Shown in pieces: positions 6,500 through 47,529 of a stretch of 64,000 nt of DNA. The position numbers and the translations under genes are program-made. The notes under the pieces were generated by a model. The model had not been told where the DNA came from and did not search any database. It worked only from the letters and a program-made list of their open reading frames with translations. The stretch spans positions 1,798,001 to 1,862,000 of the forward strand of contig CP084619.1 of assembly GCA_025917655.1 (NCBI GenBank), read 5' to 3'. Position 1 is the stretch's first letter. Each line of letters opens with the position of its first letter. This DNA is from Chlorella sorokiniana (Eukaryota; Chlorophyta; Trebouxiophyceae; Chlorellales; Chlorellaceae).

Positions 6500-6774
6500 A
6501 TGCGGCGCCATAGATGACTCCTGCCGGTCCGTAGTCATCCTATTTAGTGGGCATCATGGGGCACGCAATGTGCTGACTGGTTTTTAAAAGGTGACAACCG
6601 AACAAACTATTTCCGACACAAGGGAGTCAGATCCCACTTTGGTGAGCAGGGTACTGGTGGTAGCAAGCCAGCAACACTACAAATGGCAGTCACGGTCAAC
6701 AAGGCTGCAAGGCAACCATCATGGTGTTCCATTGCCCCATTCCAGGGCATGGCGTGCTGGAAGCTGCGCGCCCC
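6500..6774. other. Intergenic, satellite edge to SDR gene
   Basis: Unique sequence between the last satellite unit and the stop codon of the dehydrogenase gene. It probably contains that gene's 3' untranslated region. No coding signal was seen. Confidence 0.6.
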
Positions 6775-8456: not shown

Positions 8457-10879
<2,423 letters not shown>

Positions 10880-17888: not shown

Positions 17889-20325
17889 CTAATTGGAGGG
17901 CAGCTTGTACTTCTCCTCCAGCTGCTCCCACACCTTGCGCAGCTCCGCATCTGCAGCATAAGCGCGGTGTTTCAGGTTAATGTCTTGTTAATGTCATGTC
18001 AAAGAGTGCGCCACCAGCGCGTGCAAACAGGTCTTCTACTGATTTGTCAGGCACTTGCTGCAAACAGTTCCTGGCTGAACAAGAGTCACGCTCACTCTCG
18101 GCGAAGCTGGTGTCGATGATGGTCGAGTTGTCGGTGGTGGCACAACGCTCCGGGGTGCCCTTCACAATCTTGGACTGCCAGCTGGGCACAGCAGAGGCAC
18201 TCGAACCTTCCAGGCCCTCCTCCTTCATCAGGGACAGGTATCGCTGCAGGCGGGCCTTCTGGGAACGGCGAGCATCCTTGGAATCAAAGGCGTAGGGGGC
18301 CTCCTCCTCGCGCAGCATGCTCTGGCCGCCCTGGTTGCACACGTCGGCAGGGCCAGCCACCAGGCGCATCTGGCGCGGGGTCATGGGCTGCAACGGGCAA
18401 GCAGTGAGGGCAACATTAGAGCTAACACATGACCGTGCGCGAACAGAGCTAGTATTGCTCTAGCGCCGGCAGGCAGCCAGGTAAAAGATTCTCACCGGCA
18501 TCGCCGTCAGGTCCAGGTGCGTCTTCACACCGTCAACAACCACGTAGGCGGAGGTGGGGGCCACAAACTCCATGTTGGGGGAGTTGTCCTCAAAATCGTA
18601 GGCCCAGTTGTGGATCTGCACGCCCGTGATGACTGCAGGGGAGGAAAGGGCAGGGTGTTGAACCAGGTCAGCGCACCCGTCGCAGCGTGCAGCACCAGCG
18701 ACTGCCAAAGATGCTGTCAAGCTAGCAGCAGACTGCAGGCAGCCGGCCCTCATGGCTGCCACCCACCTGCATAGTCGGCCTTGTCGGTGTTGACCGTCTT
18801 GGAGATGAGGAACTCGAGGTCGTCGGAGATGGTGCGCTCAGCCACCTTGGTCACATCAACCAGGCTCAGACCCTTCACAGACTCGTCGGTGGCGCCCTCG
18901 TGGCGCAGGCGGCGGGCAATGCGCTGCTTCAGGATGCTCATCTCAGGGTCCACGGCATCGTGCACTGCAACGAATGGGGAATTGGTTCGCAACGTGAATC
19001 AAGAAACAAAGAATCGCCTCACTGCTTGACTGCTAGCATGATCCGCAAGTAGTGGCCAGTTGTAACCTGGCACACACACCCACTCCCACCCACCGCCAGG
19101 GATCTTGCAGTTGCAGGTCAGACCCTCGCTCTTGATCTCGTTGGTGGCCTTGATCAGAGCGCCGCACGCGCACGACTGGCCAGGGCGGCCGGGCGGCTCA
19201 TGGGGCCAACCTCGCCCTTGGAGTTGATGCTGATGTGGGGGAAGGAGAAGAACACGTAGCGCTCCTTGTTGCTGCTGCACAGCGGGGAGTGGCTGAAGCC
19301 GGCGCCCATGCCCGTCACGCCGCAGGTCAGCACGCCGCCCAGGCCGTTGGTGGAGAAGGAGGAGCCAAACACCTCCTCAATGCGGTGCTTCAGGGTCACC
19401 GTCACCTCGTCGCGGCACAGGTTCACCATGGCTGGCAGGAAAGAAGGAAGGGGGCAGGTGTGAGAAGAGGGACACTGCTGGAGCTCAACCCTCGTTGCTG
19501 CCCAGTCTGCCCCAGAGGCAAGCCACCATCCCTCACCGATGGAGTTGTCGCCGGTGAAGCCAAAGGCGTACAGAGCCATCTCCACACGCTGCATGAAGTC
19601 GTCGGCGCCCAGGGCGCTCTCAAAGTGCGCCTGCACAGCGTTGGCCCGCCCAGTCAGGTACTCAAGCTCGGCGCTCTCAGGGGCTGCCTCCAGCGCCTCG
19701 CTCTTCGCAGCGGCCCGGGCCACAGCCTCGGGGCCACCGATGATGATGGTGCCGTCGCTCTCCACCACAATCATCTTGCCGTTTGCCTCAATCACAGTGT
19801 CCTCCACTGCAGGACAGGGCAGCACAGCCAGGGTTGAGGCCATGCGAGAGATATGAGCAGCCTGGGTGAAAAATCTTCTATCCCGCAGGGCAGAGATCCT
19901 GGGGCACAGGCTGCCTCACAAGGCCTTCTTATCGTGGAGGCGAGCCCTCTGCATGGCAAAAGTTGCCCTCCCAAAGACTGGTGTCACCCACGGGCTGCGG
20001 TAGTCGCCCGGTAGTAGTGCAGCAAACTTTCAAGGCAAAGGCTATTCAGTTGTGTGGATGCTGTCAGCTGCCCATACACCCGATGTTGGTGACATAGCTG
20101 TTACCAGCCCAGCCAGCGCGCTGCATGCTCACCATCAGCAGCGGCAGAGCAAGCCACCTGCCGCAGGCGGCGAGCCTCTGCCTTCTGCACAGAGCGGTGG
20201 CTGAGGCGGGCGGCGTGGACGTTGCTGCGGGTCGCACGAGGACCACTGGCCCGGTGAGCACCACCGCTGCAGCAAGTGCAGGTTGCCTGAGCGGCCATGG
20301 CAGCAGAGCGCAGGACAAGAGGCAT
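17889..20325 (-). CDS. LCIB: LCIB-family (theta-type) carbonic anhydrase-like protein, copy 1
   Basis: Seven exons, about 20133-20325, 19537-19807, 19094-19431, 18767-18964, 18496-18632, 18096-18387 and 17889-17950, give about 495 residues. The N-terminus (MPLVLRSAAMAAQATCTCC, or from the second Met at 20298) is a plastid transit peptide. The conserved core has FESALGADDFMQRVEMALYA, FGFTGDNSI, VNLCRDEVTVTLKHRIEEVF, LTCGVTGMGAGFSHSPLC, RYVFFSFPHISINS and QSCACGALIKATNEIKSEG. The Cys and His residues in these blocks are candidates for the zinc site. LCIB acts in the chloroplast stroma around the pyrenoid, where it helps recapture CO2 as bicarbonate under low CO2. One C is missing in a run near 19190 (MSRP to GRPGQ). 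It diverges from BST1. Confidence 0.93.
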
Positions 20326-20635
20326 GACTGCGCTCCGAAATGCGATGTGTAAGAGTTTCGGGGAAAATGTGGCGTGTCGTAGGAAGCAGGAGGGAGTTTC
20401 AGGCCGCATCTAATACCTCCTACACGTGAAACGCGTGAAATGACCCACTGCATTTCGCGCCTTTGAAGAGGCTTGCCGAAAGCCTCCTACTACCACTTCA
20501 CACGTTCCTGCTGTCAAACGATATCATCTCCGCTTCTTCAGCGTCTTTTAGGACCGCCAATTGTGCCAACCCTAAGTCTCCCACCTGCCCATCAGCCCTC
20601 CCACAGCTTAATAACTTGGTGGCCAACCACGCATA
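20326..20635. promoter_or_regulatory. Bidirectional promoter region LCIB1/BST1
   Basis: 310 bp separate the two start codons of the divergent pair. Two GAGTTTC elements on the plus strand, at 20353-20359 and 20394-20400, fit the GANTTNC core described for low-CO2 enhancer elements in Chlamydomonas. An imperfect inverted repeat (GCGTGAAATG near 20433 and CATTTCGCGC near 20452) is also present. Function is inferred from position only. Confidence 0.55.
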
Positions 20636-22935
20636 ATGGCCTCCTCAGTTACTGTCAACCCGATGGCAACGGCGGCGCCTACCAGAGGCGCCCTTTCCCG
20701 CTCCGCGGGCAAACGCCCGCTGGCCACTCCCCTGCTGCGCCAGCGCCAGCCAGGCCTGGCTGCTTTGACGGCCCGCCAGCACGCTGCAGCCTGCCGGGGC
20801 ACCCGTCTTCCTTACGTGCGCGTGTCTGCTGCGGCCAGCACCGATAAGGCTGAGCCAGACCACCCTTACTTCAGCGACGACTGGAAGGAATACAACCGCC
20901 GCTTCCAGCGCCCGGTGCGCGCGCTGCCGTTTTCGTGCGCTTGCCACTCGCCACGCTTGATCTACATGCAGCACCTCACTGATGCTGTTACTGTGCTACG
21001 GCACATGCGCTGAAGGAACTGGGGACTCAGTCCTGCCTGTTGATCTACTACAATGCTGGCTCAGTCGTCTCCACCAAGGCCTCCAATGCTTGCAGACTCT
21101 CCAATGCTCCCCATGCTGCCCCCCACCCCCTGCCCCAGGTGTTTGACTTTGAGCGCTGGAAGAAGCACCGCAGCTCCAGCCGGTACCTGCGCCACGTGCT
21201 GGGACTGGGGGAGTCCAAGATTGTGAGCGTTGTCAGCTGCTGGCTGACATGTGCCAGTGGTTGGGAGAACAATCTGTACATCAACCTGCATGCCAACAAG
21301 GCGCAGGACTGATTTTCGCTGCTTGAAAGCCAAGACAGGGGTTGAATTCCTCTTCCTTCTCCCTGCGTCTGCCTTCGCAACCCGCAGGTGCAAGGTCTGG
21401 CCAAGCCGCTGGCATACGTGATGACGCTGGCCACCAGCGTCGCCGTGTACAACACCCTGGCGCAGGCGGGCACTGTGCCTGAGCTGCCAGACCTGAAGTT
21501 TGCCTCGGCGCCCTTTGGCCTCACCTCCTTCGCGCTCTCCCTGCTGCTGGTGTTCCGGTGAGGTTGGGAGCGCACAGAGCGTACAGCAGGACCCTGCTGA
21601 GGCCTTGGCCTGCTCAGCTTGGTGTTGCTGCCCCTACTGTCTCTTACTTGCTTCCTGCCACCCCCACCACCACGACCAATCTACACAGCACCAACACCAG
21701 TTACCAGCGGTGGGACGAGGCGCGCAAGATGTGGGGTTCCATGGTGAACCGCAGCCGCGACTTCACCCGCCAGGCCCTGGGCTACGTGCCCGAGTCGCAG
21801 CCCGAGCTGCGCTCCATGCTGGTCCGCTGGAGCATCACCTACCCGTGAGCCGCTGCTTGCTGCTTGGCAGGGGCGACTTTGTGATGGCTGGCGCTGACGG
21901 TTGTGGTGCTGGTGGCCTTGCATGCATGCTGAGGCATGCCGCCCTTGCTGGCTCCGTGTTGCAGGCGTGCGCTGATGTGCCACCTGCGTCCGGGTGAGAA
22001 CATTGAGGAGGAGGTGAAGGACATCCTGAAGCCTGAGGAGGTGAAGGCCCTGGTGGCCTCCACCCACCGCCCCAACTACTGCATGCAGGTGAGGCGGGCT
22101 GTTGGGTGCGCCTTGCCTGGGTGCTGTGCATTGTGGATGGTATTGCTTTTGGGGGCGGCATGTTTTGTGGAGGGTATGGGCAGTGCGAGTGGCGATGCAT
22201 CATGTCTCGCTGAACGGAATGGAGGCAGGGGCAAGTGTCAGGCGAGAGTTCAGGGCTTGTCATGCCAAGTTCTTCTTCTTTCCTATCCGGCAGGTACTGA
22301 CTGCCTGCCTGAAGGAGGCTCAGCTGCCTGCTGCCGTGACCAGCAACACGGACAGCACGGGCGTGGTTCCGGCTGGAGCTGCCTACCGGATGGACGAGAA
22401 CCTGACCGTGTACTCGGATGTGACTGGTGGCTGCGAGCGCATCCTGCGCACCCCGGTTCCCCTGTCCTACACGCGGTGAGTTGATGGGGGAGGAGAATGC
22501 CAACAGGACTGCCATTTATACGGGGGCATCTTGCCTGCTCTAGCCCTGACCATTCTGCTTTCGTCCTTGTGCAGGCACACCTCTCGCTTCATGATGATCT
22601 GGCTGACGCTGCTGCCCTTCACGCTGTGGGACAGCTGCGGCTGGGCCACGCTGCCCATCACCGGCATCGTTTCCTTCCTGCTGCTGGGCATTGAGGAGAT
22701 TGGCGTGAGCATCGAGGAGCCCTTCACCATCCTGCCGCTGGAGGCCATTGCGCGCACCATTGAGGCCAACCTGCGTGAGCTGGAGGCCACCCACGGCCCC
22801 GCCACGCTGGGCACCAAGCCTGAGGGCGCCAAGAAAGCCGAGCAGCTGCTCTACGAAATCATCCCCAGCTTGGCGCCCAGCAACAATGGCGCCGCAGCTA
22901 ATGGCGCGGCCAGCAAGGTTACCTTGAACGCATGA
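20636..22935 (+). CDS. BST: Bestrophin-like thylakoid anion (bicarbonate) channel, copy 1
   Basis: The gene starts MASSVTVNPMATAAPTRG, with a plastid transit peptide ending near VRVSAAAS. Exons begin at 20636, 21139 and 21388, then at about 21695, 21964, 22294 and 22574. Core features are DFERWKKHRSSSRYLRHVLG, a first membrane segment LAKPLAYVMTLATSVAVYN, a second SFALSLLLVFR followed by NTSYQRWDEARKMWG, LRPGENIEEEVKDIL, and a C-terminal membrane block (FMMIWLTLLPFTLWD and ITGIVSFLLLGIEEIGVSIE) with EEPFTILPLEAIARTIEANL. This is the bestrophin/RFP-TM family (Pfam PF01062). Its members BST1-3 in Chlamydomonas sit in thylakoids, are needed for the CCM and associate with LCIB. The tail ends KVTLNA. 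All frames are intact across about seven exons. Confidence 0.93.
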
Positions 22936-23735
22936 GGTCAGGGCTGGCAGGCTTGCCTTCGCGACCAACAAGAGTTTGACGCAGCAATGCTTGCTCCCCG
23001 CAAGCTCAGGCTACGGTCAACGCGGCGCCGGCCCTTTACTTTGACCAATCTGATTCGTCTGACAACCCTTGCGGGCTAACACCAATGCCAGCAAATGAAT
23101 CCTGGGCGCAGCAGCTTGGTGTCACACGGGGACCTCTGAATCCCCCAAGGGGGTCCACTTGGTTGACTGTGTTTCAATTTCATTATCGACAATTCTGCTT
23201 CGGGCGCCTCCTCGGCTCTGCAGGGCGTTCCCACCACCATTTCTTCTCTCCATGCAGTGCTGGCTAATGGCTTGATCGCCACTGCTGGAGTTTGTACACC
23301 CCGTCTTTTGTCCTGCTTGGCCTTCGTTTTCAGCAGTGTAACATGATAAGAATGAAACAGTGAGGTTTGCATAGGAGTCCTGATTGCCCAGCCGAGTCAT
23401 TTTGCGGCTGAACGCTCTCCACCTCTCTGTCCCTGTACACCAAATGTGCAGCGGCGCTTGCCGCCATCAGTCACTCATTGACACCCCAGCTGCATGCGCG
23501 CTGCTGCTTCTTGCGAGGCGGTGCTCGACGGGATGCTGCCTTGCGGCCCCCGCCTCTGCTGCCACGTCATCAGGCGTGCTGCGGGCACCGTCACGGGGCG
23601 GCGGGTGGGGGAGCGCTGCCTCAGGGAGCGGCGAACAGCTGAGGGGGACCCTGTGTCCTGGCCTGCAGCAGGCGTGCAGGCAGGAGACAGCTCATGCAAC
23701 AAAAGGAGACAGTTCATGCAACGAACCATCGAGCC
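22936..23735. other. Convergent intergenic region BST1/subtilase
   Basis: 800 bp between two converging genes. The BST1 polyadenylation signal lies at 23337-23341. No convincing coding sequence was seen. Confidence 0.5.
23337..23341 (+). terminator. Probable polyadenylation signal of BST1
   Basis: TGTAA about 400 bp past the BST1 stop codon, followed by a T-poor, G-rich stretch. Confidence 0.5.
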
Positions 23736-26700
23736 CTAGCTGGCCAACAGGAGCTTGTGAAGATGGTGGGCTTGCAGGACCATCTGCTGCACCGGCGCCA
23801 TCCCTGTTCGTCCACCCTGTGCTGCACCAGGGCTCACCAGCGAAGCGCGGGAGGGCATGTGCACCACGTGGTAGTCTGGCGCATACTGCTGCAGCTGGGC
23901 AACCGCGGCGGCGAAAGTGCGCGACTCGCCCCCTTCCACGCCGGGACGCTGCTGCACTGCCTGCTGGGCTGCTGCAACGGCGCCAGCGGCTGCAGCAAGC
24001 TGGCACGGCTGCGCATTGTTGGACGCAGGGACGTCCCGGGGGCGGCGCCGCGACCACGGCTGGTGGATATAGGCTTCAGGTGGCTTGGCGGCGGGATGAG
24101 GTCCACTGAGGAACCTGCCTCTGTGGCCCACTTTGCGCTCCCGTTGCGAGCGCCGGCTGCCTGCTTGTCCAGGTTCTCCTTGCGGTGTTGGCGGCGGTAC
24201 AGCAAAAACATACTGCTGCAAGCGCCAGGGCCAGCGCTGCTCCAGCAGCCACAGCCACGATGATGACGGTCGTGTTGCTGCCGCCGCCGCTGCTGCTGTC
24301 AAGGATGGCAGGGGCACCCGCCGGAGTGGCCGTGTCTGTTCGTGCACAGGGGGCCGGGCAGTGCCTCGCTTCATACGGGCAGTTGCAGGCACACTGCGTT
24401 GCAGGCACAGTCATGCAGAGGCCTGCCCGTGGAAGGCTCACCAGCGGTGGTTGTGGCCGGCGCAGCGCCGCTGCTGGCGCCGTGCTGGGTGCAGCCCACG
24501 CACGTTCGGGAGGTGGGCGGCTTGCTCAGGCAGTCAGCCTCGGGCAGGGCGCTGCCCCCTGTCCCTATGCAAGTCACTGTGCGGGTCTGCAGGGTGGCAG
24601 GGGCACAGGTGGAAGGTTGACTTGTGGGCCCTCTTCACAACCAGTCGTGCTGACCAACAACAAAATGTCCGCCCACACCGGGTGCACAGCTCTGCCGTGT
24701 GACCAGGTGAAGCCAAGGTCTCATGTTCACCTGGATGCACTGAGCGGAGCAGGGGCTCCAGGAGCCAACCTGCCAGCTGTAGCTGCTGCCGGGCACGCCG
24801 ATGGTTCCCTCCACCGCACTCTGCGCCACTTCGCCTGTTCAAGGGGCAGGCCCAGTTCAAAGTTGATGCGAAGGGGCAGCTTATAAACATTGCTGCACAC
24901 GAAGCCGCTTGACGGGAGCTGGCAGTCCGGCGCGGGTAAGCGCAGCTCACTTTGGGTGGCCACAGAGGAGGCGGGCCCCACTTCGGCCACTGTGGCAGAC
25001 GCACTCTGCAGCTTGGCTGGTGGAAGCTCCCTTCACCTGGCTGCCGTCGTTGGAGGTGATGCTGCACAGGCCAACACAGTGGGAAGGGTGTGACACGCAA
25101 AACGGGGAGAAGCGTGCAGGCAAGCGCAAGGCCTTGCCTGATGCTGTAGGAGCCTGAGGCCCCGGCTACGCCGTCAACCACAAAAGCATAGCCAACGCCT
25201 GCTTGCAGGGAGGCCTGCACCGGGAACGAGGAGGGCCAAGATGGCATACAAAGAAGGAACCAACCGCCAGCATGTCCTGACAGGCAAGCATCCTGCAATG
25301 CCCTCCGCCTCAAGCCCACCGTAAGGGAGGGCAGGGAGCCGCACGCGTTGTTGCTGCAGGCTGCCGCCCGCAGCGTCCCGCCCGAGTCCACGTCAGCAAG
25401 CATGTACAGGCGGGCGTCAAAGGTGGCGGGCAGGGTGATGGAGCCGCACAGTGAGGCAGTGACCGTCACGTCGGCGGTAGGCTTGTAGTAGTACACCACA
25501 TCCTACAGGGTGCAGGGCCGGAAGAGAGGGTGCAGGGTCAAGAGCCGGCTCTCCACGATGCCAACCTGCGAATGCACCCTGCTCAAGGCCCAGCTGGCGG
25601 CCAGCCAGCAACCCCGGATGCACAGTGCATGGTTGCCGCAGCGCCGCTGGAGGCTCACCGGCGCTCCCCCCGCATCGGCGTCCGCCTGGCCGCACACCAC
25701 GGCATAGTCGTCGGCGTACTGCCCCCGCGGTGCTGCTGTCCTCGCTGAAGGGCAGCGCAAGCACCGCCTTGGGGTAATTGAGCGTGTCGCCCTTACGGTC
25801 AGCCAGCGTCACCACAACCTGAGCAGGTAGTGAATGCACGGCCAGCTTGACAAGATGGAGATTGGTTGGTTGTAACGCAGAATAGCACCCGGAACCTGGG
25901 GGAACCTCATCCTGGATGCAGAACGCTTCAAGGTGTGTTGCGCTGGCATGTGCACGCTGCATGTGCCCCCTCACCTGGCTGGCAGTGAATCGCTTGTCAG
26001 CGGAAACTGTCTGTGCCCGCACTGTCAACGACGTGCTGCTGGTGCTGTAGAAGGGAAAAACTGCATGCGAGGGTAGAAGGGAGGCAGCAAAGACAGTTAT
26101 TATTGTCATTGTGATGCTGGGACACCAGCAGCCCAAATCGCTGCACCCACACACCAGTAAGCTTCACGGTCTGTGACGTCTTCCAATTGTTGGTGTTGAA
26201 CTTCAGTGTATTGGGCTGCAAGGTCCCTCGGGAGGCATCTGCAAGAGCACAAGTTGCAGTTCAACATCTTTAGCCTTATGGACCTCTGCGGACGGCAGCA
26301 CGCTGCCTGCAGATCAGCCCAGCAAGGCCTTCTGCTCCCACCGATTGTCAGGTCCAGCTGCACTGAGCTACTTGGCAGCGACGACAGAGCCACAGTGAAC
26401 GTGAAAGGTCCAGCACCAGCTGAATCAATGGAAAACTGTTTGGGGCTGACAGCAAGGAGTGAGGCACCGCTGCCAGCTGGTGTCTGGACCAAGAGGTTTG
26501 GTGTGTCGCTCTGCATTAGGGGGCAGGCAGCGTTCACGGTGTGGATTCAACAGCTGCTGGAGTAACATGATGCCAGTGAGGCAGGATGTAACCACCTCGG
26601 TCATACCCGCTCCCCATCCGCACCTGCTCAAAAGATTCAAATCCGCTGCCCGGCACCTCGCTCAGCTTCCCCGCCGCTGCGCGCCGCAACCAGCTGCTGC

Positions 26701-29107
26701 TGCAGCTGTGCGGGTGTGATGTTTGGGGCGGTTTCCAGCATCTGGGCCATCACCCCTGCCACGAAAGGCACGGCTTGCGACGTCCCGGTTCTAAGCCTAC
26801 ATCACGCCTCAGCTTAATGTCAGCGGGCATGTGGGAAACAGCCAAGGGGTGAACCGCAAGCATGGCGAGCCCAGCCTTCACAGCTACACGCGATGCATGC
26901 GCCATCAGCTCACTGCTGCGCGTCGTCGGCGGAGCCGGAGGCGGAGAGGATGTTGGTGCCGGGCGCAAAGAGGTCGACACACTCGCCATAGTTGGACCCC
27001 TTACCTGCACCCCACCAAAATGAGGCAGCAGCAGTGGAGAGCATGTTGCAAGGCGCAGGGCCATAATTTGTAAGCTTGTGGTGAATCCCATCAATGCCAT
27101 TGTGACAGTAGATTGGGAGGTTCTCACCGCTGGAAAGCCAAAGGCGCGCGTCGCCCTCGGTGGTGGCGCCAACCGTTACTGCGGTCGCCTCACGCGCCGG
27201 GCTCGAGTCACACGCATCGGTGTCCTCGTTTCCTGCCGCCACCACCACGTGGATGCCGCCCTCGGTTAATGACCGTATTGCCTCATCAAGCTGCAGCTGC
27301 ACCTGACCTGCATGAAGGAGAGAGCGCAAAGTTGGAGGTATGAAATTTCGCTCGCTGGGTCAGGATGGAAGATGAGGGGTTGAGGTAGGAGCGTCACAGC
27401 AGAAGGGTGGCAGCCGATGCGGCGTGGACCAACAAGGACGCCGCATGAGCTCCTGGCTGCTGCAAGCAGCAGAGCGCACCTCCAAGGGACATGCTGATGA
27501 TGGCTGGGCGCTGCGCATGCTGCTTCAGCCAGTCCAGTGCTAGCAGCACGTCGGAAACTTCAGGGCAGGCAGGCAGGGAGGGATGCAGCAGCCAGGGGAG
27601 GGTTGGAGCTCAGCAGGGCCCGCCGTGCATGGCAGTACCGCTTGCCTCCCACCTCAAATGGCTTCCCAGCACACCAGAGAGCTGCGTGCCCACCTGCGCC
27701 GTTGCCCTCGCAGTCCAGGATGCGCACAGCGCGCAGGAGGGCGTTTTTGGCCACGCCGTAGGTCAGGCCGCCGACCACGCCCGCCACGTGCGTGCCATGG
27801 CCCTCGCAGTCTGCGGCAGGTGGGCGGGTGCAAGTCTGACCAAGGGCCACAGCCCACACATGAGCAGCTTCAGCGCAGCTCTTTCCACTCCCTAAAGTTT
27901 CCACTCCCTAAAGCTAGCCAGCATTTCCACCCACCCACCCTGGTCCTTCAGCTCTCCTGCCAGGGAGGGCGCTGCAAAAACCTCGGCAGCTCGGCTGCCG
28001 GTCCTGCCGTCTTGATAGCGGAACTCGTGATGTGAGGCACGTATGCCCTGCACGTGCGATAGCACCATATAATGTTCGGGATGAACTGCGACGGGGCTGC
28101 TGTGTGAGCACAGAGGGCTAGCTGGCGGCCCCCCGCCCTCCGGCCAGTCAGCCAAGCATCGCACCCAAAAAGTGTCAGGCCTTCCACCAGGCCCCCTTAT
28201 GCCTCCACCTCCCCGCCCCTCAAACCAACCAACCCTCCCACCCACCGTGTCCATTACGTAGACGTGCACCCCAGCCCCCGTGGCGCCGTACTCGTACTGC
28301 CCGTCCAGCGGCAGGGAGGGCTGGTCCAGGCGGTCGAGGCCCCACAGCCGGATGGAAGGGCTGCCACCCCCAACATCTTCCACTGCCCCCAGTCTGCGCC
28401 CCACCAGGCGACCCCGCGCGCAGCGACACGCGGCTGTCGGGCGCCACCGACGCCAGCTGGTCCGCGTAGGCGTCAAGGAAACGGGCCAGCTGAGGGCGTG
28501 CGAAGCGGGCAGAAAAGCCACGCAGCGCGGAGCGGAAGCGGTGCGTGCAGCTGGCGTTGAAGCGGCCAGCGCGCTGCGAGCCGCCCTCGCCGCAGGCTGT
28601 GACGCTGGGGTCCGGCACGGAGCCGCCGCTGGCCTGCCGCTCACTCCGCCATACCGCAATCCAGTGCTCAGTTGGCTCAGTTGTGCTCTCGTCAGCCAAG
28701 GACTGGGCCTTCAACTCTGCCGCGTCCTCTGTTACGTCCACAGTGGGCCTGCAATGGGCAGTCCACAACGGCAGGTGAGGTTGGCAGCGGCAGGGCAGGG
28801 CAGCGCAATGCGCGCACTTGTACGATCTCAACATGCAACGCTTTTCAGGAACGTCTTATAGGGATGCAAGAAGCCCATAGCAAGCGTCCTATCCTCACGC
28901 GCAGTCTCCCAGGATGGCGACTCGGAGGGCGAGATGCTTGAGCTCAGGAAGCTGGCTGCATGGCACCGTGCCGCCGCTTCTAGCCGCTGCCGCTGTGCCG
29001 CCCTCGTCCAGGTTGACAGCCGCCTGCCCCGCCACTGCCATTGTCAACAGCGCTAACAAACCTGAGAAGCGCCATGGAACAAGCTGCGAGGCGCCCTTAC
29101 GGGCCAT
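23736..29107 (-). CDS. Type I membrane subtilisin-like serine protease (S8) with PPC-like and thrombospondin type-1 domains
   Basis: A long multi-exon gene from [20 protein letters not shown] (ATG 29107, signal peptide) to a stop at 23736. An I9-like propeptide (about 28700-28400, HWIAVWRSE and [18 protein letters not shown]) precedes the S8 catalytic domain. The Asp is in VHVYVMDT (28250, split from GIRASHHEF by an intron), the His is in [12 protein letters not shown] (near 27795), the oxyanion Asn is in [12 protein letters not shown] (near 27225) and the Ser is in [14 protein letters not shown] (near 26780). Downstream are beta-sandwich regions, a PPC-like domain (about 25490-25160), a TSP1 repeat (WSPCSAQC near 24760 and [11 protein letters not shown] near 24585, joined across an intron), then a hydrophobic segment [19 protein letters not shown] (near 24250) and a cytosolic tail. 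The substrate is unknown. Confidence 0.85.
27882..27913. repeat. 16-bp direct duplication
   Basis: TTTCCACTCCCTAAAG occurs twice in tandem inside an intron of the subtilase gene. Confidence 0.9.
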
Positions 29108-29576
29108 TGCTGGAGGGGGTGGTTGGGCCTGAAAGTGCAATCTGGGCGTGTGATGACCTCCTAGTCGTCCCCGGGAGCCTCGAACGGCTGTAAGCCGTAC
29201 CAAAAGCAATTCAACGCGAGTACATTGCACAACGAGAAAGCGCCTCGAGCCAGAACTTGCGAGTCGTGGGAGGGGGAGTTGGCACGGCGTTAACCCTGTC
29301 CAATCGACGAGGCATATGCGAATGAAAGGGCCACGTGCCTGCAGAGAGCTGCCGAGGCGGCGACAGAAGAGGCCTTCATGCCGTTCCGCCACGCTGGCAA
29401 AGGCGCGCCGCACCTGGACCGTTGGCACAAGTTGAGCAAGGCCCCACTTGGTATCGTCCCAGTTCAATGGTAAGCCCTTCCACTGATACTTCTATTAATG
29501 AGTGTCACAGCTCGCATTCCTCGCATTGGACAAGCGCAGTAGAGCCTCATTCGCAGGCGGTGGAAAGAGCGACACC
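29108..29576. other. Intergenic: subtilase promoter and MPP6-like 3' region
   Basis: The upstream region of the subtilase gene. The frame stays open to 29467, so a longer N-terminus is possible but would bury the signal peptide. Nothing else was recognised. Confidence 0.45.
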
Positions 29577-30188
29577 TCAAAAGTATCGGCCTCGCGACTG
29601 TTTCTTTGTATTGCCACGTTCTTCTTCTCCATTGTCGCCCCGCCTTTTCTTTTTGCCCTTTCCACTGCTGCCATCTTGCTGCCGTGAATGTCTGCTGCCG
29701 TCGCTATGTCGGTGTTTTTGTTTGCTAAGCGATGCTGCCATGGCCTCATCTGACACCGACTTGCCGCCAGGGTTGGCTGCCTCAGCTGCCCCCGTGGCTG
29801 CTTGCCGTTCACTGTTCGCAGCAGTAGTTTGTATTGGGTCTGCCACTGCACTATATCCACCAAAGCTCATGCGGCCGACCGCGCCGCCACTGGTGCTGGG
29901 CGGTGGGTCACCCTCAGCAATCACAATGCACCGTGTTCTCGCCCCTTCAATAACCCACTGTGCCTGCAACAGTCCCAAACGACTTCCAATGAGTGACATG
30001 GACATTGCGGGGCCGCGCTTGCCCCGCCAAAACTCCGGCAGCATCTGCCGGGCACGTTGAACAGGACTTACTTCGGCCTCTTGCTCCTGCACTTCCTCCT
30101 CCTTTTGCTGCTGTACTTCCTTTTCTTTCGCCCTCTGCATGAACTTCAAGCCCATCAGCCGGCTGGAGAGGAGCGGCTTGGCAGACAT
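29577..30188 (-). CDS. MPP6: MPP6-like nuclear exosome cofactor
   Basis: Two exons. The first starts MSAKPLLSSRLMGLKFMQRA (ATG 30188), the classic N-terminus of M-phase phosphoprotein 6, which contacts the exosome and Mtr4. A short glutamine/glutamate coiled stretch follows. The second exon, after an intron whose acceptor lies near 29967, reads AQWVIEGARTRCIVIAEGD, then the conserved GRMSFGGYSAVADPI and SVSDEAMAASLSKQKHRHS, and ends in a lysine/arginine-rich tail (KKKRRGDNGEE, GRYF). MPP6 is an RNA-binding protein that recruits the helicase Mtr4 to the nuclear RNA exosome for rRNA and ncRNA processing. The length, about 170 residues, fits the family. It is divergent from the Tudor/SPOC gene, with 317 bp between the start codons. 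Confidence 0.85.
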   Translation of the reverse strand: MSAKPLLSSRLMGLKFMQRAKEKEVQQQKEEEVQEQEAEVSPVQRARQMLPEFWRGKRGPAMSMSLIGSRLGLLQAQWVIEGARTRCIVIAEGDPPPSTSGGAVGRMSFGGYSAVADPIQTTAANSERQAATGAAEAANPGGKSVSDEAMAASLSKQKHRHSDGSRHSRQQDGSSGKGKKKRRGDNGEEERGNTKKQSRGRYF

Positions 30189-30505
30189 GGCGGCTCCTTC
30201 CCGTGCAAAGGACCTGGGACGCGGTAAACAGGTATGCAATGATTTGCAGTTCACCGAGTATGCATGCAGGGGGCCGAGAGCGTCCCGGACGGGTGGGCCA
30301 TGTAAAGCATGAAGACTGCCATCGTGGCGTGGCGTGGCGATGCTCCTGCTGAAACTGGTCTGCGCTGCTTGTTCTTCTGTCAGCTGTGCAGGCGTTAATC
30401 CCTGCGCTAACCAGCCGTCAACGCTGGGCAAACCAGAACCCGGTCTCCAAGCCTCTGTGCGCACCGCGGCTGCATCCCAAGATACATGCTCTGAGTACCC
30501 ACGAG
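30189..30505. promoter_or_regulatory. Bidirectional promoter region MPP6/SPOC gene
   Basis: The short intergenic region between two divergent nuclear RNA-metabolism genes. No specific motif was recognised. Confidence 0.45.
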
Positions 30506-37132: not shown

Positions 37133-37186
37133 TGTATGGGCATTGCGACTGTTGTGATGCGACTCGCGGTCACCAACCCTTTGTTG

Positions 37187-37191
37187 TGTAA
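37187..37191 (+). terminator. Probable polyadenylation signal of the SPOC gene
   Basis: TGTAA 55 bp past the stop codon at 37132. Confidence 0.5.
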
Positions 37192-37260
37192 GGCCCTGCC
37201 CTCGAGCCAGCTGTGGCTATTGTCGTGTGCCTGCCGCCACGCCTGGGCACAGCAGCAATG

Positions 37261-37265
37261 TTACA
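37261..37265 (-). terminator. Probable polyadenylation signal of BST2
   Basis: TGTAA on the minus strand about 340 bp past the BST2 stop. Confidence 0.4.
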
Positions 37266-37607
37266 CGGTAGCGATACTCCGGGGTGGCAGTGTGAGATTA
37301 CAACCAGGGGGCCCTGGTTGGCAGAAAGAATGGATTCATGCAAAACTTGGGTGGTGTGTGCACAGCAGCAGAGCTTGCAAGGGAACACGGCAGATGGGCA
37401 CTCCCCTGCGCTTCGTCGTGCTGAAAGAATGGGGGCTTGGCTTCAGCCAATGCCGAGAGGTGGGTTGCCAGGATGGCCCCCAAAGGTGACCGCATAGGGA
37501 AACAAACCGGCAGGTAACAAGGTGTGCAGGCGAGGTAACGCAGTCTGTTCTAGAGTACTGAATCAATGAAAGGGGAGATGCTCCGCGCCGAGGGGCTGCG
37601 GGAGCTT

Positions 37608-39596: not shown

Positions 39597-39888
39597 CCTG
39601 CTTTGGAAGTGTGCACAGCTCTACTTCTCCTCGCGGCAAGGGAGGAAGCGCACGGCCTGAAGTCACTAAATTTGCCGTCAAAGAGCCCCAATTGAATGCA
39701 CAAACTCGGAAGGTGTATACAGGCCGTGCATTCTGCTCAAGACAATGTCTCCAACGCTGCCATGTCAACCACATCGCAGCGTGATGGTTGCGGTCGTGCA
39801 TTGAGCATCTTCCCGCGCTGCATTGATCGATCGTTTGTAAAAACATCTATCAACGCCTCGGAACGGAACCAGGCAGTGCTGCGCAAAG
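39597..39888. promoter_or_regulatory. Bidirectional promoter region BST2/LCIB2
   Basis: 292 bp separate the divergent start codons. It is comparatively AT-rich with several short palindromes (GATCGATC near 39826). No clear GANTTNC match was found, and sequence similarity to the other two intergenic regions is weak by eye. Confidence 0.5.
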
Positions 39889-42211
39889 ATGGCAAGCCTG
39901 GCAAGCAGCACCGTGGCGATGCAGAGCCGGCAAGCGTGCAAGGCCACCGTGAGCGGCGGTCACAACAAGCAGCTGCGCTTCGGGATGGCGGGCAAGCTGT
40001 CTAGCCGTCGCTCCGTGCAGTGCGCTTTCTGGGGCCGCAAGAAGGAGGAGGTGAAGACCGACGCCGCTCCCCAGGAATCGGGTGGGTGTAGAAAGTGGAA
40101 TGGCTCGCGGATCGGGGTTGCCGAAACCGTCCTGAAGTGCCGAGCTTCCCTTCCTCCGCCACTACTATGATAAGCCGTCTGCCATGGGCACTAAATGTCC
40201 AAGCCAGCTACTTGTGCTGGACGCATACTGAAACAAACTGGAAGTCCAGCACCTCACCTGCAATTCTGCCTTGCTGAGCAGACTGTGTCCCTTGCCCGAC
40301 TCCGCATTCTCGTCGACCCGCTGCAGCCGCCCAGGCACCCGTCGCCGCCGCCTCCAACGGAGCCTCCACAGAGATCACCGTCGACACAACCAGCCAGATC
40401 ATTGACGCCGGTGACAAGATGATCATTGTGGAGCCCACCGGCACCATCATCATCGGCGGCCCCGAGGCTGTTGCTCGCGCCCAGGCCGCGGAGGCTGAGG
40501 AGGCCCCCGACACCGCCGAGCTTGAGTACCTGAGCGGGCGGGCCAACGCCGTGCAGAAGCACTTTGAGAGCGCCCTGGGCGCCGACGACTTCATGCAGCG
40601 CGTGGAGATGGCTCTGTATGCCTTTGGCTTCACCGGCGACAACTCCATCGGTGAGGGATGGTGGCTTGCCTCTGGGGCCCAGGCTTGGCAGCAACGAGGT
40701 TTCAGTTTCAGTGGTGTCCCTGCTCTCACACCTGCCCCCATCCCTCCTTTCCTGCCAGCCATGGTGAACCTGTGCCGCGACGAGGTGACGGTGACCCTGA
40801 AGCACCGCATTGAGGAGGTGTTTGGCTCCTCCTTCTCCACCAACGGCCTGGGCGGCGTGCTGACCTGCGGCGTGACGGGCATGGGCGCCGGCTTCAGCCA
40901 CTCCCGCTGTGCAGCAGCAACAAGGAGCGCTACGTGTTCTTCTCCTTCCCCCACATCAGCATCAACTCCAAGGGCGAGGTTGGCCCCATGAGCCGCCCCG
41001 GCCGCCCTGGCCAGTCGTGCGCGTGCGGCGCCTGATCAAGGCCACCAACGAGATCAAGAGCGAGGGTCTGACCTGCAACTGCAAGATCCCTGGCGGTGGG
41101 TGGGAATGTGTGTGTCAGCGTTCATTGCTTTTGTGCGCCTGTTGGCTTGATGTTGTTGTGGGGGAGCACGCTGCTTCTCAAATTGCTTGTTGCTGCAGCA
41201 TCTTTCCAGGTGCAGATTGCTGTTTTGGCACCGCCGATACATAGCCCTTTGTCACTCTTGTGATCATTCCCGCTTGCCGCAGTGCACAACGCCGTGGACC
41301 CTGAGATGAGCATCCTGAAGCAGCGCATTGCCCGCCGCCTGCGCCACGAGGGCGCCACCGACGAGTCTGTGAAGGGTCTGAGCCTGGTTGACGTGACCAA
41401 GGTGGCTGAGCGCACCATCTCCGACGACCTCGAGTTCCTCATCTCCAAGACGGTCAACACCGACAAGGCCGACTATGCAGGCGGGTGGCAGCCATGAGGG
41501 CCGGCTGCCTGCAGTCTGCTGCACAGCTTGGCAGCAGTTTTCGCAGTCGCTGGTGCTGCACGCTGCGACGGGTGCGCTGACCTGGTTCAACACCCTGCCC
41601 TTTCCTCCCCTGCAGTCATCACGGGCGTGCAGATCCACAACTGGGCGTTCAACTTTGAGGACAACTCGCCCAACATGGAGTTTGTGGCCCCCACCTCCGC
41701 CTACGTGGTTGTTGACGGTGTGAAGACGCACCTGGACCTGACGGCAATGCCGCCGCTGACCCCGCGCCAGATGCGCCTGGTGGCTGGCCCCGCCGACGTG
41801 TGCAACCAGGGCGGCCAGAGCATGCTGCGCGAGGAGGAGGCCCCTACGCCTTTGACTCCAAGGATGCTCGCAAGGAGCAGCGCACTCGCCTGCAGCGCTA
41901 CCTGTCCCTGATGAAGGAGGAGGGCCTGCAGGGCGAGGTGTCTTCTCCCTCCTGGCAGTCCAAGATTGTGAAGGGCACCCGGAGCGTTGTGCCACCGCCG
42001 ACAACTCGACCATCATTGACACCAGCTTTGCTGAAGGTGAGCCATGAGAAGTTTCTCCCCAACTAGCAAGCTGTTGCCCATTCCACACTGCAATGTTGTT
42101 ACAAGCGCTCCAAGTTTCACAACCTGCTGCCGCGCCTGCCTCACTGCAGACGCAGAGCTGCGCAAGGTGTGGGAGCTGCTGGAGGAGAAGTACAAGATGC
42201 CGGCCAACTGA
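39889..42211 (+). CDS. LCIB: LCIB-family carbonic anhydrase-like protein, copy 2
   Basis: The transit peptide is MASLASSTVAMQSRQACKAT, followed by a basic stretch FWGRKKEEVKTDAAPQ. The mature region opens near 40325 with ASTEITVDTTSQIIDAGDKM, then FESALGADDFMQRVEMALYA, FGFTGDNSI, VNLCRDEVTVTLKHRIEEVF, LTCGVTGMGAGFSHS and the end LRKVWELLEEKYKMPAN. It keeps an intron before the last exon (about 42036-42150) but lacks the LCIB1 intron near TAMPP. Four single-base losses in C/G runs, at about 40905, 41031, 41842 and 41979, break the frame relative to LCIB1, although the flanking sequence is conserved in the correct frame. Role as for LCIB1. It diverges from BST2. Confidence 0.9.
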
Positions 42212-42542
42212 TGCGCCCGTGGGCAATGCACATGTTGTCTCATGCCAGTTGTGGTCCAGCGATCGCATTGCTGTACAACAGGCATATTAGCACATAATGT
42301 GCATGCTCTGTCACAAGCTAGTCCATTTCAAACAAACCTTTACTAGCAGAACAGGACTTGAGTTGCATTTCATAGTCAGCTGATTGACTCGCAACGCTTT
42401 TGTGTTCAGGCTTCGGCAGTCTGCAAGCATGCTGAATGCGTGTGCGCAAGCGTGTGTGCATCCCTTCTCTTAAGAAAACACTAAATTTTATGCATCGCTT
42501 TGGTGCACTGTCTCTGCACACATGCTCCCTTGAAAGTGCATT

Positions 42543-42547
42543 TGTAA
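42543..42547 (+). terminator. Probable polyadenylation signal of LCIB2
   Basis: TGTAA about 330 bp past the LCIB2 stop. Confidence 0.4.
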
Positions 42548-42665
42548 AAATTTTGCTCATGGAAGTTCCAGGCTAAATGCAGCCTGGGCTGGCAAGCTCA
42601 GTCACTCCACCTCCACTGGTGTCACGTGTGAGGAGCCAGGCCCAACTTGCCATAAGGTCACTTTA

Positions 42666-42670
42666 TTACA
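42666..42670 (-). terminator. Probable polyadenylation signal of BST3
   Basis: TGTAA on the minus strand about 100 bp past the BST3 stop. Confidence 0.5.
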
Positions 42671-42769
42671 AGGTGACATTGAGAACATACAAGCAGCATG
42701 CAGCTGCACAAGGTACACATTGCACAGGCGCTGAGGTGTGGCACTTGGATGCCATCACTAGGCAGCCTT

Positions 42770-45190
42770 CTACTGGCTGTTCTGGCCGCGCAGGATCTTG
42801 TAGATCTCCTGCACAATGGGGTCACTGCTCGTCTCCTCAGGCCCAGAACTGCCATTGGCGCTAACCAGCACCGGCTCAGAATCTTGAGCCATGCTGATGC
42901 TGCCGATGCTGCTGACCCTGCTCCCGTTTGCCAATGCAGCATTGCCGGGCGCCAAACTGGGGATGATTTCGTAGAGCAGCTGCTCGGCATTCTTGGCGCC
43001 CTCCGGCTTGGTGCCCAGCGTGGCGGGGCCGTGGGTGGCCTCCAGCTCACGCAGGTTGGCCTCAATGGTGCGCGCAATGGTCTCCAGTGGCAGGATGGTG
43101 AAGGGCTCCTCGATGCTCACGCCAATCTCCTCAATGCCCAGCAGCAGGAAGGAGACAATGCCAGTGATGGGCAGCGTGGCCCAGCCGCAGCTGTCCCACA
43201 GTGTGAAGGGCAGCAGCGTCAGCCAGATCATCATGAAGCGAGAGGTGTGCCTGCACAAGGACGAAAGCAGAATGGTCAGGGCTGGAGCAGTCGAATTGGG
43301 CCCGTAGCAGTGGCAATCCTGTTGGCAGTCTCTCCATCCAACTCACCGCGTGTAGGAAAGGGGCACCGGGGTGCGCAGGATGCGCTCGCAGCCACCAGTC
43401 ACATCCGAGTACACGGTCAGGTTCTCGTCCATGCGGTAGGCGGCGCCAGCAGGCACGCAGCCGCGGCTGTCCAGGTTGCTGGTCACGGCAGCAGGCAGCT
43501 GAGCCTCCTTCAGGCAGGCAGTCAGTACCTGCCGGATAGGAAAGAAGAAGAACTTGGCATGACAAGCCCTGAACTCTCGCCTGACACTTGCCCCTGCCTC
43601 CATTCCGTTCAGCGAGACATGATGCATTGCCGCTCGCACTGCCCGTACCCTCCACAAAACATGCCGCCCCCAATTGCGATGCCATCCACCATACACAGCA
43701 CCCAGGCAAGGCGCAGCCGGCAGCCTGCCTCACCTGCATGCAGTAGTTGGGGCGGTGGGTGGAGGCCACCAGGGCCTTCACCTCCTCAGGCTTCAGGATG
43801 TCCTTCACCTCCTCCTCAATGTTCTCACCCGGACGCAGGTGGCACATCAGCGCACGCCTGCAACATGGAGCCAGCAAGGGCGGCATGCCTCAGCATGCAT
43901 GCAAGGCCACCAGCACCACAACCGTCAGCGCCAGCCATCACAAAGTCGCCCCTGCCAAGCAGCAAGCAGCGGCTCACGGGTAGGTGATGCTCCAGCGGAC
44001 CAGCATGGAGCGCAGCTCGGGCTGCGACTCGGGCACGTAGCCCAGGGCCTGGCGGGTGAAGTCGCGGCTGCGGTTCACCATGGAACCCCACATCTTGCGC
44101 GCCTCGTCCCACCGCTGGTAGCTGGTGTTGGTGCTGTGTAGATTGGTCGTGGTGGTGGGGGTGGCAGGAAAGCAAGTAAGGGACTGTGGGGGCAGCAACA
44201 CCAAGCTGAGCAGGCCAGGCCTCAGCAGGGTCCTGCTGTACGCACTGTGCGCTCCCAACCTCACCGGAACACCAGCAGCAGGGAGAGCGCGAAGGAGGTT
44301 AAGCCAAAGGGCGCCGAGGCAAACTTGAGGTCTGGCAGCTCAGGCACAGTGCCCGCCTGCGCCAGGGTGCTGTACACGGCGACGCCTGTGGCCAGCGTCA
44401 TCACGTATGCCAGCGGCTTGGCCAGACCTTGCACCTGCGGGTTGTGGAGGCAGACGCAGGGAGAAGGAAGAGGAACTCATGCCCTGCCATTGGCTGTCAA
44501 GCAGCGAACAGCAGTCCTGCACCTTGATGGCATGCAGGTTGACATACACCTTGTCCGCCCAGCCACCTGCACATGCCAGTGAACAAGCAGCAGCCAAACA
44601 CTCACAATCTTGGAATCCCCCAGACCCAAGACGTGGCGCAGGTACCGGCTGGAGCTGCGGTGCTTCTTCCAGCGCTCAAAGTCAAACACCTGGGGCAGGG
44701 GGGTGGGGGGCAGCATGGGGAGCACAATCGACTCAATCAGCAAGCACTGGAGGCGTTGGTGGAGGCGGCTGAGCCAGTCTTGCGGTAGACCAACAGGCAG
44801 GCTGAGTCCCCAGCTCCTTCTGTGCATGTGCCACCGCACAGCAACAGCTTCAGTGCAGTGCAGCGGTGCATGTGAATCAAGCGTGGCGAGAGGCAAGCGC
44901 ACGAAACGGCAGCGCCTCACCGGGCGCTGGAAGCGGCGGTTGTATTCCTTCCAGTCGTCGCTGAAGTAAGGGTGGTCTGGCTCAGCCTTATCGGTGCTGG
45001 CCGCAGCAGACACACGCACATAAGGAAGGCGAGTGCCCCGGCAGGCTGCCGCATGCTGGCGGGCCGTCAAAGCAGCTAGGCCTGGCTGGCGCTGGCGCAG
45101 CAAGGACTTCGTTGCAGTGGGCCTCCTGCTTGTCAGCGTTGCCGCAGTGGCCGAAGGTTGTACTTTGACAGAGCTAAATACGGTAGGCAT
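42770..45190 (-). CDS. BST: Bestrophin-like thylakoid anion channel, copy 3
   Basis: It starts MPTVFSSVKVQPSATAATLT (ATG 45190; an in-frame Met at 45247 is an alternative), with a transit peptide. From [20 protein letters not shown] to NRRFQRP it is nearly identical to BST1. The same exon order and intron after HVLGLGDSKI are kept, as are SYQRWDEARKMWG, PGENIEEEVKDILKPEEV, YRMDENLTVYSDVTGGCER and the C-terminal membrane block with EEPFTILPL. It differs by a longer tail after EIIPSLAPGNAA, with about 45 extra residues (ANGSRVSSIGSISMAQDSEP and DPIVQEIYKILRGQNSQ). All frames are intact. The tail may hold an interaction or sorting signal. No LSxEQxxFLERK motif is present in it. It diverges from LCIB3 with 291 bp between start codons. 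Confidence 0.93.
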
Positions 45191-45481
45191 TGTTATGAGC
45201 GAAGGCTCACGGGGTGTGCCACTTGTGCCACCAGGGAGTCTCACCACAAATTGTATGGCAGCGGGCGAAGTGCAAAGCCCGCTATCCGATCACAACACGC
45301 GCTCCTGGCAGGCAGGAAAGAGAAGATGGGAGAACTTTATCGAGAGTCAACCATGGGGCGTGAGAGGAAGTTGTTGGTCGTTTCAGGCTCAGCACATGCA
45401 TTGTGCGGTGGACTTGACATCATTTCCCTTCCGATCGGTGTCTCAAAAACTAGTCGTCGTTCTTAAACAAACATAGCAGCT
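45191..45481. promoter_or_regulatory. Bidirectional promoter region BST3/LCIB3
   Basis: The 291 bp between divergent start codons, almost the same length as in pair 2. No exact GANTTNC element was seen; GGACTTGACAT (near 45411) is close but does not match. Confidence 0.5.
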
Positions 45482-47529
45482 ATGACCGCCTTTGCAGTGA
45501 CCAGCGCCCGCGCCGATTTCACGGCTGCACTGAACTGTGCACGCCGGGTGCGCCGGAGCAGCAATGCCGGTCAACTGCTGTCAAGCCGCAATGCGCCTAA
45601 GGCAGCTGGCCGCGGCGCCTCTGTGACTCGCGCCGTCGCTGAGGGTGAGTTCCGTGGGCCTGCTGTAAGTGTTTATGCGGCTCATATCGGGCAGGGAAGC
45701 AAATTGACAGCCCCGCCACTTCCCAGCACGCTGCGTTGGTCGCCTCCAGGCGCCCACTACCACACGCTCCTGCAAGTCACCGACGCAGAAGCGTAGTGCT
45801 GGGTTTGCACACGTTGCACCTGTAGCATCTATCATCTGCTGTGATGAAGGAAAGGCTTCCTCTACTGCTGCAGATTTCCAGTCTATTGAGGCTGGCGGTA
45901 AGACGATCGTTGTGGAGAGCGACGGCACCATCATCATTGGATCTCCAGATGCTGTGGCCCGCGCCCAGGCCGCCAACTCAGCCCTGGAGCCTGCCCCTGA
46001 GACCGCCGAGCTTGAGTACCTGAGCGGGCGGGCCAACGCCGTGCAGAAGCACTTTGAGAGCGCCCTGGGCGCCGACGACTTCATGCAGCGCGTGGAGATG
46101 GCTCTGTATGCCTTTGGCTTCACCGGCGACAACTCCATCGGTGAGGGATGGTGGCTTGCCTCTGGGGCAGACTGGGCAGCAACGAGGGTTGGCTCCAGCA
46201 GTGTCCCTCTTCTCACACCTGCCCCCTTCCTTCTTTCCTGCCAGCCATGGTGAACCTGTGCCGCGACGAGGTGACGGTGACCCTGAAGCACCGCATTGAG
46301 GAGGTGTTTGGCTCCTCCTTCTCCACCAACGGCCTGGGCGGCGTGCTGACCTGCGGCGTGACGGGCATGGGCGCCGGCTTCAGCCACTCCCCGCTGTGCA
46401 GCAGCAACAAGGAGCGCTACGTGTTCTTCTCCTTCCCCCACATCAGCATCAACTCCAAGGGCGAGGTTGGCCCCATGAGCCGCCCGGCCGCCCTGGCCAG
46501 TCGTGCGCGTGCGGCGCCTGATCAAGGCCACCAACGAGATCAAGAGCGAGGGTCTGACCTGCAACTGCAAGATCCCCGGCGGTGGGTGGGAGTGGGTGTG
46601 TGTGCATCAGGTTACAACTGGCCACTACTTGCGGATTATGCTAGCAGTGAAGCAGTGAGGCGATTCTTTGTTTCTTGATTCACGTTGCGAACCAATTCCC
46701 CATTCGTTGCAGTGCACGATGCCGTGGACCCTGAGATGAGCATCCTGAAGCAGCGCATTGCCCGCCGCCTGCGCCACGAGGGCGCCACCGACGAGTCTGT
46801 GAAGGGTCTGAGCCTGGTTGACGTGACCAAGGTGGCTGAGCGCACCATCTCCGACGACCTCGAGTTCCTCATCTCCAAGACGGTCAACACCGACAAGGCC
46901 GACTATGCAGGTGGGTGGCAGCCATGAGGGCCGGCTGCCTGCAGTCTGCTGCACAGCTTGGCAGCAGTTTTCGCAGTCGCTGGTGCTGCACGCTGCGACG
47001 GGTGCGCTGACCTGGTTCAACACCCTGCCCTTTCCTCCCCTGCAGTCATCACGGGCGTGCAGATCCACAACTGGGCGTTCAACTTTGAGGACAACTCGCC
47101 CAACATGGAGTTTGTGGCCCCCACCTCCGCCTACGTGGTTGTTGACGGTGTGAAGACGCACCTGGACCTGACGGCAATGCCGCCGCTGACCCCGCGCCAG
47201 ATGCGCCTGGTGGCTGGCCCCGCCGACGTGTGCAACCAGGGCGGCCAGAGCATGCTGCGCGAGGAGGAGGCCCCTACGCCTTTGACTCCAAGGATGCTCG
47301 CAAGGAGCAGCGCACTCGCCTGCAGCGCTACCTGTCCCTGATGAAGGAGGAGGGCCTGCAGGGCGAGGTGTCTTCTCCCTCCTGGCAGTCCAAGATCGCC
47401 ACCACCACCCCTGCCCGCTGCGCCTCCGCCGACAACTCGACCATCATCGACACCTCTTTCACCGCTGACCCTGAGCTGGTCCAGATCCGCGAGCAGCTTG
47501 AGGAGAAGTACCAGATGCCCGCCAACTAA
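45482..47529 (+). CDS. LCIB: LCIB-family carbonic anhydrase-like protein, copy 3
   Basis: The transit peptide is MTAFAVTSARADFTAALNCA. The mature core runs FQSIEAGGKTIVVESDGT, FESALGADDFMQRVEMALYA, FGFTGDNSI, LTCGVTGMGAGFSHSPLC, RYVFFSFPHISINS and ATNEIKSEG. It has the fewest introns of the three and runs straight into its own C-terminus KIATTTPARCASADNSTIID and LVQIREQLEEKYQMPAN. In LCIB1 and LCIB2 an intron precedes the final exon, and the segment reads KIVKGTPERCA or similar. Introns 2 and 3 match LCIB1 almost exactly, while the next intron matches LCIB2 exactly. Three single-base losses in C/G runs (near 46482, 46518 and 47272) disturb the frame. It is paired with BST3. Confidence 0.92.

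Follow-up and report, generated by a model that had tools for sequence, protein, structure and literature searches.

Within the 64,000-nucleotide stretch of Chlorella sorokiniana contig CP084619.1 analysed here (the window), a locus of about 31 kb comprises three divergent gene pairs, each encoding an LCIB-family protein and a bestrophin-like protein (BST), together with an orthologue of CsLinker, the pyrenoid linker of Chlorella. In gene order, the locus of this Chlorella-type green alga starts with the linker and LCIB1/BST1; BST2/LCIB2 and BST3/LCIB3 follow after 14.7 kb that contain other genes. We consider it likely that the locus constitutes a cluster of CO2-concentrating and pyrenoid genes, that its modules act in a two-step recapture of CO2, and that they descend from one ancestral pair that was duplicated and whose cores were then homogenised by gene conversion.

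The six LCIB and bestrophin genes were modelled through three-frame translations and splice sites. In module 1, LCIB1 (20325 to 17889, minus strand, seven exons) and BST1 (20636 to 22935, plus strand, seven exons) diverge from intergenic region 1 (20326-20635). In module 2, BST2 (39596 to 37608, minus strand, six exons) and LCIB2 (39889 to 42211, plus strand, six exons) diverge from intergenic region 2 (39597-39888), and in module 3, BST3 (45190 to 42770, minus strand, seven exons, with the longest C-terminal tail) and LCIB3 (45482 to 47529, plus strand, five exons, last intron absent) diverge from intergenic region 3 (45191-45481). The start codons of the partners are spaced 310, 292 and 291 bp apart in modules 1, 2 and 3, respectively. 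Modules 2 and 3 share one orientation and lie about 5.3-5.5 kb apart, while module 1 is inverted. Thus the three head-to-head pairs of the first-pass annotation are confirmed, with spacings exactly as claimed, as is its description of pairs 2 and 3 as direct copies and pair 1 as inverted. All modelled introns are GT-AG, with the sole exception of LCIB2 intron 4, which has a GC donor at 41481-41482, a site at which LCIB1 and LCIB3 have GT. The copies also differ in intron presence, in that LCIB2 and LCIB3 lack the intron that separates exons 5 and 6 of LCIB1, and exons 2 and 3 are fused in BST2. The window as a whole has a eukaryotic build, with spliced genes and a G+C content of 58-72% in 2-kb steps.

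The family assignments proposed at first pass, LCIB and bestrophin-like, are supported by Pfam and PDB matches. Specifically, LCIB3 matches Pfam PF18599 (LCIB_C_CA) over positions 1-222 of 223 (E 1.5e-81). It also matches the Chlamydomonas LCIC and LCIB structures (PDB 5b5x and 5k5w, E about 1e-110), and the LCIB core is 60-61% identical to these solved chains. BST1 matches Pfam PF25539 (Bestrophin_2) over positions 3-288 of 288 (E 1.4e-90) and a bestrophin-like protein of known structure (PDB 7ek1, E 1.8e-61). The family searches covered LCIB3 and BST1, to which the remaining four proteins are 83-94% identical; LCIB1 and LCIB2 are placed in the family by the near-identity of their cores to that of LCIB3, and the three bestrophins are mutually 82-94% alike. 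Residues C51, D53, H111 and C135 of LCIB, which we take to form the metal and active site, do not vary in either of two five-sequence alignments and are identical in all three window copies. By analogy with Chlamydomonas, the LCIB-family protein of each module would be a carbonic anhydrase and its bestrophin a channel of the thylakoid type, with activity, location and conductance predicted from the Chlamydomonas proteins.

Next to module 1 lies a gene absent from the first-pass annotation, which starts 435 bp past the LCIB1 stop codon on the same minus strand and occupies 16047-17453 in three exons (17453-17382, 17087-16971 and 16783-16047). Three stretches of one of its open reading frames (ORFs) match Pfam PF24429 (CSLinker motif, E 2.7e-39), and the gene product matches chain Z of PDB 8q05 (CsLinker alpha3-alpha4, E 6.5e-19). 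Its N-terminus looks like a transit peptide, which we regard as putative. CsLinker is described as a disordered repeat protein of the Chlorella pyrenoid, where it condenses Rubisco, and as induced at low CO2; its Rubisco contacts are given as Phe, Leu, Arg and Lys residues, and homologues are reported from closely related species only (PMC11570498). The window linker carries five Phe-Leu-Glu-Arg-Lys (FLERK) motifs, four of which share a frame, with the fifth beyond a frame break. CsLinker of C. sorokiniana UTEX 1230 has this repeat motif too, with Phe-Leu-x-Arg-Lys as the residues that contact Rubisco, but it has six repeats against five motifs here, and 66 residues lie between two numbered CsLinker helices, against a repeat length of 70-71 residues in the window linker (PMC11570498). 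Given the narrow reported range of CsLinker homologues, the alga is probably related to Chlorella, but the differences in repeat length and sequence show it to be distinct from UTEX 1230. The terms 'LCIB', 'gene cluster' and 'synten' were not found by a word search of the main text of that paper. At the DNA level, the linker repeats form a tandem array at 16215-16758 (period 213, 2.6 copies, 89% matches). They are recent tandem copies, and the number of motifs may therefore vary between strains. Pfam was applied to 50 ORFs from the rest of the window, picked from a larger list on coding score or length and thus a partial annotation; the linker is the sole CO2-concentrating gene found among them. 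Since the linker adjoins LCIB1, we read the locus as a CO2-concentrating and pyrenoid cluster.

The pairing could instead be a neutral by-product, in which LCIB and bestrophin became neighbours once by chance and were carried along by block duplication, with a spacing of about 300 bp that is common in a compact algal genome and with no shared regulation; we judge this possible but unlikely. In its favour, one ancestral pair is enough to account for three modules, and therefore repetition alone is no evidence of selection for joint regulation. The first-pass argument that repeated retention of the pair implies selection is accordingly weak and unsupported as put, because block duplication of a single pair suffices in place of three retentions. 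The Chlamydomonas genes, moreover, are tagged to different chromosomes (PMC10473226). The intergenic regions likewise show little in common. They align across copies no better than shuffled sequence, with pair identities of 40, 47 and 43%, whereas shuffles (20 each) averaged 42-43% and reached at most 47-53%. The three regions share 11 six-mers against 6.6 expected (P 0.08) and one seven-mer against 0.5 expected, and a search for shared words in these regions together with the linker upstream region gave no clear excess over chance. The motif GANTTNC, which we assume to be a Chlamydomonas element, has two matches in the same four regions, both in intergenic region 1.

Chance would, however, have to explain two further associations: the pyrenoid linker adjoining module 1, and the recurrence of the same two families as neighbours in a bacterium. 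One scan of prokaryote contigs returned a single LCIB locus, in an Armatimonadetes metagenome-assembled genome, and the survey was then limited to that phylum (291 genomes). LCIB is present in three of the 291 genomes and in none of 14 control genomes, while PF25539 bestrophins are present in seven of the 291, in 14 copies. The only genome with both families (G083) has one copy of each (LCIB, 2.8e-71; bestrophin, 5e-45), adjacent and on one strand, with the bestrophin first; the two overlap by 4 bp if the start in the ORF list is used, or are separated by 5 bp if translation begins at the ATG three codons further on. The run continues from bestrophin and LCIB into a TMEM175-family gene and is flanked by trigger factor and clpP/clpX. 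The TMEM175-family ORF (L006:7504-8079) overlaps the bacterial LCIB ORF by 8 bp and is a possible third member of the run. As in the window, the two families are immediate neighbours, but the bacterial pair is co-oriented and near-contiguous, whereas the window pairs are head-to-head. By our own estimate, immediate same-strand adjacency of one gene of each family would arise by chance in a 3.4-Mb genome on the order of once in 3000, a figure that does not yet allow for the three LCIB genomes. The bacterial adjacency suggests independent support for a functional coupling of LCIB and bestrophin and is a stronger argument than repetition, yet it is one case. As to mobile DNA, viral contigs yielded no relatives with LCIB3, BST1, the LCIB alignment or the bacterial LCIB as query, plasmids and phages yielded no relatives of the algal LCIB core, and plasmids yielded none of the bacterial LCIB.

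Several of these observations weigh against a functional cluster. The 14.7 kb from the end of BST1 to the end of BST2 carry other genes, the excess of shared six-mers is not clear of chance, and the adjacency of LCIB and bestrophin is found in a single bacterial genome: in the other two with LCIB, G001 (7 ORFs) and G215 (10 ORFs), no bestrophin lies near LCIB, nor is there a PF25539 match genome-wide, the older bestrophin model PF01062 lying outside that search. To these are added the frame breaks of the assembly and the assumptions of the permutation test, both considered below. On balance, we still favour a cluster of functionally related genes. A broader proposal is that LCIB and bestrophin form a recurrent unit, in which a CO2-hydrating enzyme passes bicarbonate to its own channel, that this unit was brought or held together separately in bacteria, as a tightly packed run, and in Chlorella-type algae, as divergent pairs beside the linker, and that the pyrenoid CO2-recapture machine resides in one locus; we advance this only tentatively.

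In the assembly, an unbroken frame from end to end is found only in BST1 and BST3. One-base breaks occur in LCIB1, LCIB2, LCIB3 and BST2 (in exons 1 and 2 of the latter), and the linker gene has one break in exon 3. Wherever their position could be fixed, the breaks sit at runs of C or G; two are common to LCIB2 and LCIB3, and one to LCIB1 and LCIB3. We read the breaks as errors of unpolished long-read sequencing: breaks of this kind recur in unrelated genes, and the protein between them is intact. The position of breaks in C or G runs, and the fact that copies have some in common, would also fit an assembly artefact in which haplotypes or strain variants were placed in tandem, or in which one copy was polished with reads from another. 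Such an artefact is very unlikely, since intron presence, 5' exons, intergenic regions and tails all vary from copy to copy, and since the frames of BST1 and BST3 are unbroken. Alternatively, the LCIB copies could be dying or dead, with real frame breaks spread by gene conversion, as all three are broken as read and some of the breaks are common to copies. This, too, is highly improbable: each break involves one base in a C or G run, the copies have only some of them in common, similar breaks are found in the linker and BST2, which are unrelated genes, and the LCIB protein between breaks retains its 60-61% identity to Chlamydomonas LCIB/LCIC.

The cores of the three copies are about 90-100% identical, several introns included, and which copies match best varies along the gene. 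Runs of one partner pattern number 30 in LCIB against 106 expected, and 79 in BST against 126 expected, and none of 5000 permutations was as low in either case, under a test that assumes independent sites and uses a single alignment. In LCIB, the first exons and first introns are 40-51% identical between copies. Exon 3, by contrast, shows zero or one substitution in any pair of copies, indels aside, and copies 1 and 2 are identical at 336 of 336 aligned bases. Copies 1 and 3 are 98% identical in intron 3, which has diverged in LCIB2 (48% to copy 1, 50% to copy 3), whereas intron 4 is 99% identical between copies 2 and 3 and 96% between copy 1 and either of them; at the 3' end, the relationship between the copies shifts once more. 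In BST, copy 2 is the most divergent of the three in its 5' half. Specifically, copies 1 and 3 are 80% identical in exon 1 and 96% in exons 2 and 3, against 58-61% and 81-84%, respectively, for copy 2 to the others, and the intron between exons 3 and 4 is 97% identical between copies 1 and 3, 41% between copies 1 and 2, and 39% between copies 2 and 3. Exons 4-6 and their two introns are then 89-100% identical across all three copies, with 95-99% for the intron following exon 4. Comparisons that would align unlike introns (BST2 exons 2/3 and LCIB2/LCIB3 exons 5/6, which are fused) were excluded, and the BST values are like-for-like.

Mosaic identity, partner switching and the inclusion of introns are the features by which we recognise gene conversion, and all three are seen here. 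The mosaic is best explained, on the sequence comparisons, by old duplicates whose cores were probably homogenised by gene conversion. A recent segmental duplication without gene conversion, in which only fast-evolving parts have diverged, would account for exons and some introns that are 95-100% identical in places. It is most improbable: intergenic regions and LCIB first exons and introns at 40-51% identity stand against LCIB intron 4 at 96-99%, and the switching of the closest partner along the gene already contradicts it. Purifying selection alone, acting on old duplicates, would explain conserved protein cores but is extremely improbable, given near-identity at all codon positions (as in LCIB exon 3) and near-identical introns (as after BST exon 4).

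Taken together, these observations are consistent with the following scheme. One head-to-head pair would have been duplicated long ago, in tandem and in inverted orientation, and the protein cores would later have been homogenised repeatedly by conversion among the copies. Each module would be transcribed divergently from its stretch of about 300 bp. LCIB would convert to bicarbonate the CO2 that enters the stroma or escapes the pyrenoid; the bestrophin would then move the LCIB-made bicarbonate into the thylakoid lumen, the two forming a two-step recapture unit as in the Chlamydomonas model. The neighbouring linker is predicted, by analogy with CsLinker, to condense Rubisco into the pyrenoid that LCIB and bestrophin serve. 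Subcellular location, bicarbonate flux, induction at low CO2 and shared regulation of the partners are predictions of this scheme. Gene conversion may keep the cores of two multimer-forming families interchangeable, such that subunits can still co-assemble, and we propose co-assembly as the reason for the conversion. The divergence of the copies in their intergenic regions and LCIB N-termini suggests that they may be specialised in expression or placement, and differences in the protein tails could contribute to the same end.

Algal CO2-concentrating components are known mostly singly, from Chlamydomonas, and a clustered locus would provide a genomic argument for the pairing of channel and enzyme. 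The locus would also be a compact parts list for the engineering of pyrenoids in crops, and the bacterial bestrophin-LCIB run a simple system for asking whether both proteins form one machine.

The remainder of the window contains other genes and repeats. Positions 1-6508, at the window start, are a satellite-like array (172-bp unit, 37.8 copies, 95% matches). Glyceraldehyde-3-phosphate dehydrogenase domains at 8709-10302 (minus strand) were considered as a Calvin-cycle neighbour; the enzyme is presumably of the cytosolic type. Between modules 1 and 2, in the interval 24537-30464, a subtilase piece lies at 26.9-27.3 kb and an MPP6 domain at 29.6-30.5 kb, and no CO2-related family was found with Pfam among the ORFs scanned there. 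About 1.4 kb past LCIB3, a Myb-type DNA-binding domain is encoded at 48902-49540 (minus strand), and it is conceivable that this gene is a regulator of the cluster. A glucose-6-phosphate dehydrogenase (G6PD) N-terminal domain lies at 60684-60824 (minus strand), with weak C-terminal matches at 58.9-59.9 kb.

Compared with known systems, the window contains the same families as the LCIB/LCIC and BST1-3 of Chlamydomonas. There, LCIB/C is reported to interact with BST1 and BST3, the BST genes (BST1-3) are reported to be induced at ambient CO2 except in the cia5 mutant, LCIB/LCIC are said to follow the same expression pattern, and two-step recapture, by LCIB/C and then BST, has been proposed (PMC6708349). 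Bicarbonate transport by BST1-3 is said to need confirmation (PMC10096703). The interaction and like expression in Chlamydomonas, together with the linker neighbour, uphold the first-pass link of both families to the CO2-concentrating mechanism, while its equation of LCI11 with BST1 is wrong, LCI11 being given as BST2 and BST3 (PMC6708349). We found no report of LCIB-bestrophin or LCIB-linker adjacency in the literature searched, in which subscription journals are poorly covered. In the trebouxiophyte Trebouxia sp. A48, three putative bestrophin channel genes are reported in tandem, matching the number in the window, and the word LCIB does not occur in the main text of that paper (PMC12712428). 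The three Chlamydomonas bestrophins are described as more than 80% alike and within 130 kb on chromosome 16 (PMC6708349), and the window bestrophins are likewise 82-94% alike. The gene tags of Chlamydomonas LCIB, LCIC and BST, however, place them on chromosomes 10, 6 and 16 (Cre10, Cre06 and Cre16; PMC10473226), whereas each LCIB of the window stands head-to-head with a bestrophin. The protein families are already known, and what is new is their arrangement.

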